Source of the DNA: Lactobacillus kimbladii
Lineage (GTDB): Bacteria; Bacillota; Bacilli; Lactobacillales; Lactobacillaceae
Assembly (NCBI RefSeq): GCF_014323605.1
Contig: NZ_SCMB01000001.1
Coordinates: forward strand, 62,001 to 126,000
DNA length: 64,000 nucleotides
Direction of reading: 5' to 3'
Shown here: positions 27,169 to 30,008 of the stretch, piece by piece
Numbering within the stretch: the first letter of the stretch is position 1
How the letters are laid out: each line of letters starts with the position of its first letter
The notes under the pieces: generated by a model
What the model was told of the DNA's origin: nothing
Database searches by the model: none
The model's input: only the letters and a program-made list of their open reading frames with translations
Position numbers and translations under genes: made by a program

Positions 27169-27525
27169 TTAGTCAGCATCTATAATGCTATTAATTTTAG
27201 GTGCTACTAGTTTTTCCATCACTTTCATATTCACCGGCTTATAAGCAGTATCTATACACTCCTCCCAATACCCTAAGTGTTTTTGATCAATATAGCTTTC
27301 CGAATCTTCAACAGCACTGCCTCCTTCTCCTTGGATAGAATACCAATAAAAGTATGTGTAACCATCCGAACTTTCCTCTTTAAATACAGTCTCAATATAC
27401 ATTTTTTCTCCAGCCATTGTTGCCACAGTATCTTGATGATGTTTATTTAAAAAATCCATCCATTCCTGTGCTCTTAATTCTTTACCTTTTTTAATACGAA
27501 AACGTGTTAATTCAATTTTTGTCAT
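27169..27525 (-). CDS. DUF6176 family protein
   Basis: 118 residues, cytoplasmic, one domain of probable ferredoxin-like alpha-beta (ABM/dimeric barrel) type: ELTRFRIKKGKE, EWMDFLNKHH, EKMYIETVF, YFYWYSIQGEGGSAVEDSES, HLGYWEECID. The blocks match my memory of DUF6176; no function is established. Single gene with its ATG behind AAAGGTAGG. Confidence 0.7.
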   Translation of the reverse strand: MTKIELTRFRIKKGKELRAQEWMDFLNKHHQDTVATMAGEKMYIETVFKEESSDGYTYFYWYSIQGEGGSAVEDSESYIDQKHLGYWEECIDTAYKPVNMKVMEKLVAPKINSIIDAD

Positions 27526-27584
27526 AATCCTACCTTTGATAATTATTATAATAAATAATGCAATACACTAAGAATTAGTAAATA

Positions 27585-27632
27585 GCGCTTACTAAATCGT
27601 GAAGCGTTACGAACCTGCTTAAGATCTGGTTT
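27585..27632 (-). pseudogene. Degraded duplicate of the rpsI 3' end
   Basis: This 48-bp segment matches 29616-29663, the last 16 codons of the intact rpsI, at 39 of 48 positions and in the same orientation. It reads K-P-D-L-K-Q-V-R-N-A-S-R-F-S-K-R against [16 protein letters not shown] in rpsI; the stop codon TAA has become TAT. The two copies are direct repeats around the ABC operon 27945-29410, as left by an element integrated at the rpsI 3' end. A decayed second rpsI is the alternative. Confidence 0.75.
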
Positions 27633-27847
27633 AACTATATTTCAAAAGACTTTACTATCAGGTGTCTTCTCGCTTTTCTGAAACTAGTGCTTCAATAAGT
27701 TTCAACTAATTTCAAATGAATGATATGAGTTTCACTTCTAAAATATATGAATTGAGTTGATAAATACTAAAAGTTCACACTACTCAATAACTTACTTTGG
27801 TAAACTTTTGTAGAATACTCCCAGTTAATTATTTCAATAGAACATAA

Positions 27848-27888
27848 ATTAGAAAGACACTTTTATATTCAGCTAGTGTCTTTCTAAT
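27848..27888 (-). terminator. Terminator of the rpsI-linked ABC operon
   Basis: Perfect 13-bp inverted repeat (ATTAGAAAGACAC / GTGTCTTTCTAAT) with a 15-base loop, about 55 bp past the last gene of the operon. The T-run is weak. Confidence 0.55.
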
Positions 27889-27944
27889 ATTCAAAAGTTA
27901 AGAACAAAAAGCATATTTTCAACAATCAATAGATTTACGCTTAC

Positions 27945-28109
27945 TTATTTTGCTTTCTTTCCCTTACGTTCTATTAAATCTGCAATTAAGGCGGGAATAA
28001 TTGCAATAAAAGCAGTCTCTTTTTCTCCCCAAACTAGTATCCCGACTGCGAGTACAATTGAAACTATTGCTAAAGCAACGGCTATTTGATGATATAATTT
28101 TTTAGTCAT
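27945..28109 (-). CDS. Small membrane protein, third gene of the ABC operon
   Basis: 54 residues. ATG at 28107-28109, GGAG 11 bases upstream. A basic N-terminus (MTKKLYHQ), a hydrophobic helix (IAVALAIVSIVLAVGILVW), a second one (TAFIAIIPALIADL) and a basic tail (IERKGKKAK). It starts 18 bp after the permease stop codon. I do not recognise a family; small accessory membrane proteins are common beside ABC-2 peptide exporters. Confidence 0.65.
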   Translation of the reverse strand: MTKKLYHQIAVALAIVSIVLAVGILVWGEKETAFIAIIPALIADLIERKGKKAK

Positions 28110-28127
28110 AATAGTTCAAACTCCTAA

Positions 28128-28778
28128 CTACTTAAATGTGTTGGAATATACTTTTGTTGAAATTATCATTGAAACGATTGATATTACGGCAATTAAGATA
28201 CAGCTTGTGATTACTAGCAGGAAAGAATTAGTATTACCAATCCAAGCGATGAACGATAGACCCCAAGTCGTTTTCTGCAAAATATAAACCCCTCCCATAA
28301 TAAGGACTAAAACCAGTATATTTACAATTGTGATTCCAAACGTGCCTGAAGCGTAAACTGCTGGGAGTAAGAGTACTACATACATGATACCAATCAATAA
28401 GCCAACTATCGATATCAATATATGAATTTGCAGGCTAAATTGTTGGAAAATTAGAGCAGTGGCAATGCTTAAAATTAAAGTTATAAAGCTAATAGATACA
28501 ATTAAAGAAATACAAAAAATATATCTAGCCAAAACTATATTTCTTTTGGGAATAGGAAAAACACCTACGAATCTGTTCCATCCACTTTCTTGGTCAGCAA
28601 TCAATAGACCAGTTGGCATTGATGCTAAACTAATCGGTCCCATTATTGAGAGAAAAATCGTTCCAGACTCCCTACCAAAAATTGTCACCAAAAGTAGTAC
28701 TAATATGATTAGCAATCTACTTTTTACACTTATCTTATTTAGTATAAGTTGAAAATCCTTATAGAGAAGTCCGCTCAT
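28128..28778 (-). CDS. ABC-2 type permease (PmtB/ABC2_membrane_5-like)
   Basis: 216 residues with six predicted helices. The start MSGLLYKDFQLILNKI and the block GWNRFVGVFPIPKRNIVLARYI follow the ABC2_membrane_5 pattern (LxKD near the N-terminus; W-x-x-F-x-x-x-x-P-x-x-R). Relatives include PmtB, which exports phenol-soluble modulins in staphylococci. It overlaps the ATPase gene by 4 bp, and its ribosome site (AAAAGGAG) lies inside the last ATPase codons. Substrate unknown. Confidence 0.87.
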   Translation of the reverse strand: MSGLLYKDFQLILNKISVKSRLLIILVLLLVTIFGRESGTIFLSIMGPISLASMPTGLLIADQESGWNRFVGVFPIPKRNIVLARYIFCISLIVSISFITLILSIATALIFQQFSLQIHILISIVGLLIGIMYVVLLLPAVYASGTFGITIVNILVLVLIMGGVYILQKTTWGLSFIAWIGNTNSFLLVITSCILIAVISIVSMIISTKVYSNTFK

Positions 28779-29410
28779 CTATCTTTACTCCTTTTACTAA
28801 AAATAAAATAGTTAGCAACTTGTTCTAAATCGCTTAAGATATGTGAAGACAATAATACCGTCATTTGATTATCATTGACATATTCTTTTAACATAGATAA
28901 GATTTCTTTCCTTACAATGGGGTCAAGCCCACTGGTTGCTTCATCAGCAATTAAGAGTCTTGGGTGATGAGAAAGTGTGGCAGCAAAATTTAATTTAGCA
29001 AGCATCCCTCTTGAAAAATTACTAATAGGCTTATTGGTAGGCAAATCAAACTCATCAATCAAATTGTGATAGAGTTTTTTATCCCAACATGGATAAACCT
29101 TTTCTAGCATTTTTTCAATTTGTTGAACAGAAAATGAGTTTGGAAAATAATTTTGCTCCAAAATTACACCTAAGTTAAGTTTTATCTGGCATTCATCTTT
29201 AACATAATCCAAACCAAAAATTTTTACATTGCCTATTTCACTTTTTATTTGATTTAATAGTAAATTCAAAAAAGTTGACTTACCTGACCCATTTTCACCA
29301 ATTAAACCAACAATACTACCTTCATTTATTTTTAAATTGTTAATTTGTAGCTGAAAATTTTTATATCGCTTACTTAAATTTAGCACATCTATTACTGGTT
29401 TTGTGTCCAT
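28775..29410 (-). CDS. ABC transporter ATP-binding protein, short form
   Basis: 211 residues. Walker A LIGENGSGKST (~residue 38), Q-loop LGVILEQNYF, signature NFSRGMLAKL (~133), Walker B LLIADEATSGLDP, and switch SSHILSDLEQ. Relatives of PmtA/YtrB type usually carry a further ~80-residue C-terminal region; here the chain ends soon after the switch histidine (FSKRSKDR). The ATG is behind GTGAGG. First gene of the three-gene operon next to rpsI. Confidence 0.87.
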   Translation of the reverse strand: MDTKPVIDVLNLSKRYKNFQLQINNLKINEGSIVGLIGENGSGKSTFLNLLLNQIKSEIGNVKIFGLDYVKDECQIKLNLGVILEQNYFPNSFSVQQIEKMLEKVYPCWDKKLYHNLIDEFDLPTNKPISNFSRGMLAKLNFAATLSHHPRLLIADEATSGLDPIVRKEILSMLKEYVNDNQMTVLLSSHILSDLEQVANYFIFSKRSKDR

Positions 29411-29558
29411 TTTTATACCTCACTATGATTGCAACATCATATATACAACCATTAAACTACTTCAAATTAGGATTATCAAAGTCAGTAGTGCATATTGATT
29501 TTTAAAGTAATGGTGTGAATTTGGTTGGTGTAAATTTTGCAAAAAAATTATAAAAAAA

Positions 29559-29584
29559 CACCTCATGGTATAAACCATGAAGTG
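29559..29584 (-). terminator. Terminator of rplM-rpsI
   Basis: Eleven-base-pair stem with one G-U pair (CACTTCATGGT / ACCATGAGGTG, minus strand), 4-base loop, followed by seven T. It stops the ribosomal operon before the ABC genes. Confidence 0.85.
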
Positions 29585-29612
29585 CTTTAAAACGCTGATA
29601 TAATCGTACTGA

Positions 29613-30008
29613 TTAACGTTTACTAAATTGTGAAGCTTTACGAGCTTTCTTAAGACCAGGTTTCTTACGTTCAACCATTCTTGGATCACGAGTCAAGAAT
29701 CCCGCTTTCTTTAAAGGACCACGAAAATCAGGGTCAACTTCTAGAAGAGCGCGTGCAATTCCTAAACGAATAGCTCCGGCTTGCCCAGAGAAACCACCAC
29801 CATTTACGTTAACCTTAACGTCGTATTGATTTTCAGTTTCAGTCAAAGTCAATGGTTGTTTCAAATCCTTAACTAAGTTAGGAAATGGAATGTATTGATC
29901 AATATCTTTGTTATTAGCAGTAATCTTGCCGCTACCTGGTACTAAACGAACACGCGCAACAGAATTCTTGCGCCGACCGGTACCTGCATATGCAACTTGT
30001 TGTGCCAT
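29613..30008 (-). CDS. rpsI: 30S ribosomal protein S9
   Basis: 131 residues, usual length. Family blocks [35 protein letters not shown] and the basic C-terminal tail ending QFSKR, which reaches the tRNA anticodon in the P site. It follows rplM by 11 bp. Its 3' end is duplicated in degraded form at 27585-27632. Confidence 0.97.

Follow-up and report, generated by a model that had tools for sequence, protein, structure and literature searches.

The short insert behind the ribosomal protein S9 gene (rpsI) of Lactobacillus kimbladii is best explained as the att-flanked scar of an rpsI-specific integrative element, a reading to which we give a probability of about 93%, the arrival of the exporter operon as cargo not being included in this figure. 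In the window, i.e. the whole stretch of 64,000 nucleotides that was analysed, rpsI is intact and the insert is flanked by a direct repeat of the rpsI 3' end, as is characteristic of long-repeat rpsI elements. Since an integrase is absent from the window copy, the locus is classed as a remnant and not as an element. The scar is old, and it should be immobile, because there is no integrase and the distal repeat has decayed. The features of the locus are as follows, with genomes of the survey given here and below by our own handles (G017 and the like):

27169..27525, minus strand: DUF6176 gene (Pfam PF19673), the neighbour of rpsI before the insertion
27526..27581, minus strand: native downstream flank of rpsI; the old terminator is traceable in G037 and G065
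27582..27632, minus strand: copy 2, the probable displaced original rpsI 3' end (48 bp), plus the former stop codon
27640..27678, minus strand: distal att arm, degenerate, probably element-derived
27848..27888, no strand: inverted repeat after the operon, terminator-like, with perfect 14-nt arms
27945..28109, minus strand: small protein of 54 aa, of membrane type as judged by eye, encoded by the third operon gene
28128..28778, minus strand: ABC-2 permease of 216 aa, open in the window (Pfam PF13346, ABC2_membrane_5)
28775..29410, minus strand: ABC ATPase of 211 aa, C-terminally truncated (Pfam ABC_tran)
29504..29612, minus strand: proximal att arm after the rpsI stop codon, probably element-derived
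29511-29522 and 29526-29537: two AAATTYACACCA repeats in the proximal arm
29552-29588: terminator in the proximal arm
29579-29606: core-like CGATTATATCAGCGTTTTAAAGCACTTC in the proximal arm
29613..30008, minus strand: rpsI (Pfam Ribosomal_S9), its 3' end probably supplied by the element

The repeat itself is as the sequence-only reading had described it: the rpsI end at 29616-29663 recurs in the same orientation at 27585-27632 with 39 of 48 positions matching, and TAT stands where copy 2 would have the stop codon, which had been reported as lost. When the whole window was scanned with the rpsI end on both strands, no other 48-mer scored above 29, and among the direct-repeat families of the 5.5 kb searched this repeat ranks first. 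In the carriers the similarity to rpsI is confined to the 3' end and covers no second full rpsI. In order to see how the locus is distributed in the genus, the rpsI end was searched in 75 same-genus genomes, 70 of which match, and apart from the window the region was taken from 68 of the remaining 69; G039, where rpsI is split between contigs, was left out, and G012, with 15 bases after rpsI, was not counted. The survey for a second copy thus comprises 68 loci with usable downstream sequence, the window included, and in four of them (G062, G040, G022 and G058) less than 2 kb follows rpsI, where a distant second copy could be missed. A second copy of the genome's own rpsI end is present in six of the 68 loci (G000, G030, G029, G019, G025 and G037), matching at 39-41 of 48 positions and lying 1.9-3.5 kb downstream of rpsI, while the best same-strand second match in the other 62 loci is at most 27 of 48. 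G065 is a seventh carrier, in which about 26 bp of the rpsI-end copy are deleted. The ABC operon lies between rpsI and DUF6176 in these seven carriers only (69 loci; the neighbour map omits ABC and MacB ATPase rows below 45% identity). Its conservation beside rpsI across the genus with no repeat, which had been named beforehand as an outcome speaking against integration, was therefore not seen.

Strains in which DUF6176 directly follows rpsI had been proposed as a check on the integration and were found: six genomes (G006, G007, G017, G032, G041 and G062) have empty sites with DUF6176 98-379 bp after rpsI. DUF6176 was not found in the remaining 55 of the 69 loci within the sequence examined. 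In a tree of five flanking genes from 13 genomes, G017 branches outside the carriers (88% support), followed by G065 and G037 (96%), which is consistent with a single insertion in the ancestor of the carriers.

Both ends of the insert are homologous to the arms of integrase-bearing elements, the distal one weakly so in the window itself. After the rpsI stop codon the window carries CGATTATATCAGCGTTTTAAAGCACTTC, the terminator and AAATTTACACCA / AAATTCACACCA, and this pattern recurs in four genomes of g43, a genus in another family of the same order. In three of the four g43 genomes (G449, G477 and G484) the arm pattern follows rpsI, a convergent tyrosine-integrase frame of 405-425 aa is found from 104 bp on, and long rpsI repeats accompany the integrase-bearing insertions; the fourth, G470, has no rpsI coding sequence before the arm pattern, no listed integrase frame and no long repeat. 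The g43 integrase shares 80% identity with the integrase of Streptococcus phage Javan88, and g43 is for this reason regarded as a probably streptococcus-like genus. No rpsI end was found in the last 3 kb of the Javan88 record. The proximal arm of the window aligns with the G484 junction (L121) at 79% identity over 263 bp, a span that takes in the rpsI end and reaches 109 bp past the stop codon; the empty-site genome G017 aligns with the g43 junction only over the rpsI part plus 7 bases. Across the 68 loci the proximal-arm scores are 120-137 in the seven carriers and 36 in the next locus, and the element terminator and the TTCACACCA-type repeats after rpsI are common to all seven, including G025, which an arm-pattern search of 100 relatives missed owing to a one-base gap in its arm. 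For the distal arm, scored as the best of 12 g43 stretches, G065 and G037 reach 49 (0 of 300 mononucleotide shuffles), and for the window the score is 29, where mononucleotide shuffles average 15 and attain 29 in 0-1 of 300 cases.

Each of G449, G477 and G484 contains the 51-nt rpsI end three more times, at distances of 24-54 kb downstream of the gene and with matches at 41-51 of 51 positions (39 in one case), and G470 has no further copy; multiple copies are as expected for elements integrated in tandem. One of the G449 copies agrees at all 51 nt with the rpsI end now found in G019 and G025 and at all but one with that of the window, which is no proof of origin, since the native G017 end also differs by only one base.

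The comparison with empty sites suggests which of the two rpsI ends is the original one. What follows copy 2 in G037 and G065 aligns with the rpsI terminator region of G017 (score 41, 0 of 300 shuffles), and the window gives a weaker match to the same region (score 31, 2 of 300 shuffles). This link to the old terminator, by which the native flank can be placed at the far end of the insert, comes from G017 as one of five empty-site genomes compared, since the other four (G062 not among them) gave no signal against the sequence past copy 2. Moreover, rpsI ends in AAA-CGT-TAA in all seven carriers and in AAG-CGT-TAA in all seven near relatives compared, and the penultimate codon is AAG in all six readable second copies. 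AAA is also common at this position in more distant members of the genus which do not carry the element, so the codon alone proves little and serves as supporting evidence. Taking together the AAG codons, the flank match to G017 and the foreign arm after the present rpsI end, we infer that copy 2 is the original end of rpsI, displaced and decayed, and that the present end came with the element.

The mobility genes are missing. The window copy has no integrase match at E values up to 10, and no relaxase, coupling-protein or phage gene lies between the window copies, where only the three operon genes are found; the other listed frames are below 100 aa, overlapping the operon genes or rpsI. One of the seven carriers, G019, preserves 31 aa of an integrase C-terminus as a remnant located between its arm and its operon (64.5%, E 2.9e-5, in a search of eight loci of 4.4 kb). 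The earlier proposal that an element integrated at rpsI and then lost its mobility genes is thus supported by the empty sites, by both arms and by this integrase remnant.

The exporter operon had been read as complete and as having its own terminator. The ATPase, the permease and the 54-aa frame do lie between the copies, but the operon is not complete, as the ATPase is truncated to 211 aa from the 285 aa which it has in G019, G065 and Kandleria vitulina, about 80 C-terminal residues having been lost through a deletion of about 205 bp with a frameshift. As for the terminator, the inverted repeat after the operon is real but absent from the list of the terminator scan, whose limit is exceeded by its loop of 13. 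The ATPase is cut at the same place by a deletion of about 205 bp and a frameshift in G037, and it is frameshifted in G030, G025 and G029, so that it is broken in five of the seven carriers. The permease is open in five of the seven, with stops in G037 and a run of N in G029 that may be an assembly gap, and the 54-aa gene is open in all seven. Pairwise dN/dS is 0.19-0.52 for the permease (five open copies), 0.22-0.31 for the ATPase core (four genomes) and, in the pairs for which it is defined, 0 to 0.61 for the 54-aa gene, which is short; DUF6176 has 0.11-0.29. On the basis of these values and of the broken ATPases, the exporter was under purifying selection in the past and has been broken recently, mostly in the ATPase. 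The G+C content is 30% in the insert versus 36% in the window.

The identical ATPase deletion occurs in two distant carriers, the window and G037 (L039), with short T-rich similarity at the deletion ends; recurrent slippage or exchange between species is suggested as alternative causes.

Relatives of the permease are found in L. huangpiensis (98% identity), L. laiwuensis (97%), L. kullabergensis (95%, partial), Lactobacillus sp. W8174 (92%), L. melliventris (88%), an uncultured Lactobacillus MAG (86%) and Kandleria vitulina (75%). Most of the permease-bearing Lactobacillus species are bee-gut species. Among the 397 family and 398 class genomes sampled (E up to 1e-8 and 1e-10, respectively), the permease was found beyond the window only in G162 (50%), G111 (25%) and G836 (57%), and it has no match in the plasmid collection. 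A frame resembling the 54-aa gene, as judged by eye, follows the permease in Kandleria, G836 and G162. The best NCBIfam match of the ATPase is PmtA (8e-58), the ATPase of the Pmt exporter of phenol-soluble modulins; its 195.9 bits are below the cut-off of 350 bits, as are the 213.4 bits of the full-length Kandleria homologue. Unlike Pmt, the locus has a permease with no NCBIfam match and only three genes between the copies. A role of the operon in the export of small peptides or in immunity would be a guess.

That the exporter operon arrived as cargo of the element, as had been proposed, is likely: it is present in all seven carriers, decaying rather than complete as first described. No intact element with this exporter was found, which counts against the main reading. 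An alternative compatible with the scar is that the operon was inserted later and independently, which we regard as unlikely. It would fit with the relatives of the operon elsewhere, which have no integrase or att site nearby in the stretches examined (20.6 kb in Kandleria and about 3.5 kb each in G162, G836 and G111), and with the distances in the carriers, the operon of G019 starting about 280 bp after the integrase remnant and those of the others at most about 100 bp after the arm repeats. However, the permease was found in six of 16 genomes queried, all six of them carriers, and the other ten, which belong to the same genus, gave no match; one arrival of element and operon together is therefore simpler. 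A further explanation dispenses with an integrase and invokes homologous recombination, namely the single crossover of a circle bearing an rpsI end and the exporter. The 48-bp homology and the restored gene would also result from such an event, but it is made very improbable by the integrase remnant in G019, by the homologous arms at either end of the insert and by arm repeats of the kind seen in integrase-bearing elements. Least probable is a tandem duplication of full-length rpsI that decayed in place to its 3' end. Such an origin would account for the orientation of copy 2 and for its 48 bp of similarity to the end of rpsI, and it had been named as a possible refutation. It is rejected because the similarity in the carriers is limited to the 3' end, what precedes copy 2 resembles the distal arm of the elements and not rpsI, the intact rpsI is followed by a terminator and arm repeats of foreign origin, and none of the relatives examined (68 loci) has a longer second copy.

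Considering these results, we assume that the common ancestor of the seven Lactobacillus genomes, after its split from G017, acquired an integrative element at the 3' end of rpsI. This element would have had a tyrosine integrase specific for rpsI and have belonged to the type with long direct repeats that streptococci are known to harbour. In its attP a copy of the 3' end of rpsI would have been joined to the element's own terminator and arm repeats, so that recombination could have kept rpsI whole with an end and a terminator supplied by the element. According to the comparison of genomes, the original end (copy 2) and the native flank were displaced to the distal end of the insert, next to DUF6176. 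The integrase, with whatever transfer or phage genes there were, is now absent and was probably lost afterwards, leaving behind the operon for the ATPase, the ABC-2 permease and the 54-aa protein, which is now breaking after a period of purifying selection. The element may have been an ICE, an IME, a prophage or a satellite. A wider scenario is tentative and slightly less probable than its contrary: an element of streptococcal type would have crossed families into the ancestor of a group of bee-associated Lactobacillus species and been domesticated there, with the rpsI end and its terminator permanently replaced throughout the clade and the exporter still selected for some time after the loss of mobility. 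The kind of element is already known, and the locus is a clear but ordinary new example of it; as the general phenomenon is not new, the gain lies mainly in the annotation and in a series of decay stages that can be dated. With its empty sites, larger short-repeat insertions and an old long-repeat scar sharing its arms with a streptococcus-like genus, rpsI of Lactobacillus offers a before-and-after series, which suggests that an essential gene can permanently acquire a foreign end from such an element and that a rare exporter operon can be left stranded by it.

The 3' end of rpsI had been put forward as a known attachment site, which agrees with the literature: PMC5357655 describes three families of integrases that target rpsI, two with long repeats and one with short repeats, and rpsI is given as an ICE target of streptococci in PMC4701971. 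The present locus shares with the long-repeat elements of PMC5357655 the target gene, the targeted end and the long direct repeat, but it differs from them in its Lactobacillus host, in having no integrase or mobilisation gene, in its size of only about 2 kb and in the decay of the displaced repeat. The terminator and arm repeats at the integrase-side junction of G449, G477 and G484 are also like those here. IMESag-rpsI of Streptococcus agalactiae likewise lies 3' to rpsI between two att sites; it measures 9496 bp and encodes an integrase, a replication initiator and a MOBV relaxase according to PMC5090054, none of which is present at our locus. No report of this locus appeared among the matches listed in the literature for rpsI together with Lactobacillus or honey bee.

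Larger insertions with integrase-like frames at the same site, which the earlier reading had proposed to look for, do exist in the genus, though with shorter repeats and another arm. Integrase-like frames lie 0.1-1.1 kb after rpsI in four genomes (G005, G018, G057 and G071), as detected by tblastn with rpsI-site integrases (23-27% identity, E 2e-8 to 1e-11 for the best query); a regular expression for tyrosine-recombinase motifs gave one unrelated match and missed these frames. The native flank together with the last 15-19 nt of rpsI is displaced downstream in five of 12 genomes tested, by 10.1 kb in G071, 10.5 kb in G018, 11.1 kb in G005, 4.9 kb in G057 and 2.5 kb in G067. These five insertions resemble the scar in using the rpsI 3' end and in moving the native flank, but only 15-19 nt are repeated, the left-arm score is at most 36 versus 120-137 in the carriers, and they are larger and contain other genes. 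In G018 (L095) and G005 (L100), integrase-like and replication-initiator-like frames follow rpsI, and further on there is an open frame of at least 1129 aa in G018 and at least 554 aa in G005, restriction- or methylation-like by eye. In G064 rpsI is separated from the recognisable pieces of DUF6176 by some 3 kb of other DNA, which apparently starts a few codons into DUF6176 and appears to be a different insertion at the same place.

In phage and plasmid collections copy 2 has no match as DNA, and the 24-residue rpsI end matches as protein in 24 phage and 139 plasmid records, several of which simply carry rpsI. No viral contig matched in a scan with the arm pattern. In a scan by coding pattern three did, two of which have an integrase-like frame beside the site by eye, and the third has none in the stretch examined. 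In the one phage record inspected, that of Listeria phage vB_LmoS_188, an annotated integrase lies beside the rpsI-end site. Enterococcus accounts for 65 of the 139 plasmid records; in the one inspected, the Enterococcus faecium plasmid NZ_CP045013.1 (L116), an unannotated rpsI end lies 0.9 kb from an annotated integrase, and these are possibly plasmids or elements that are able to enter rpsI.
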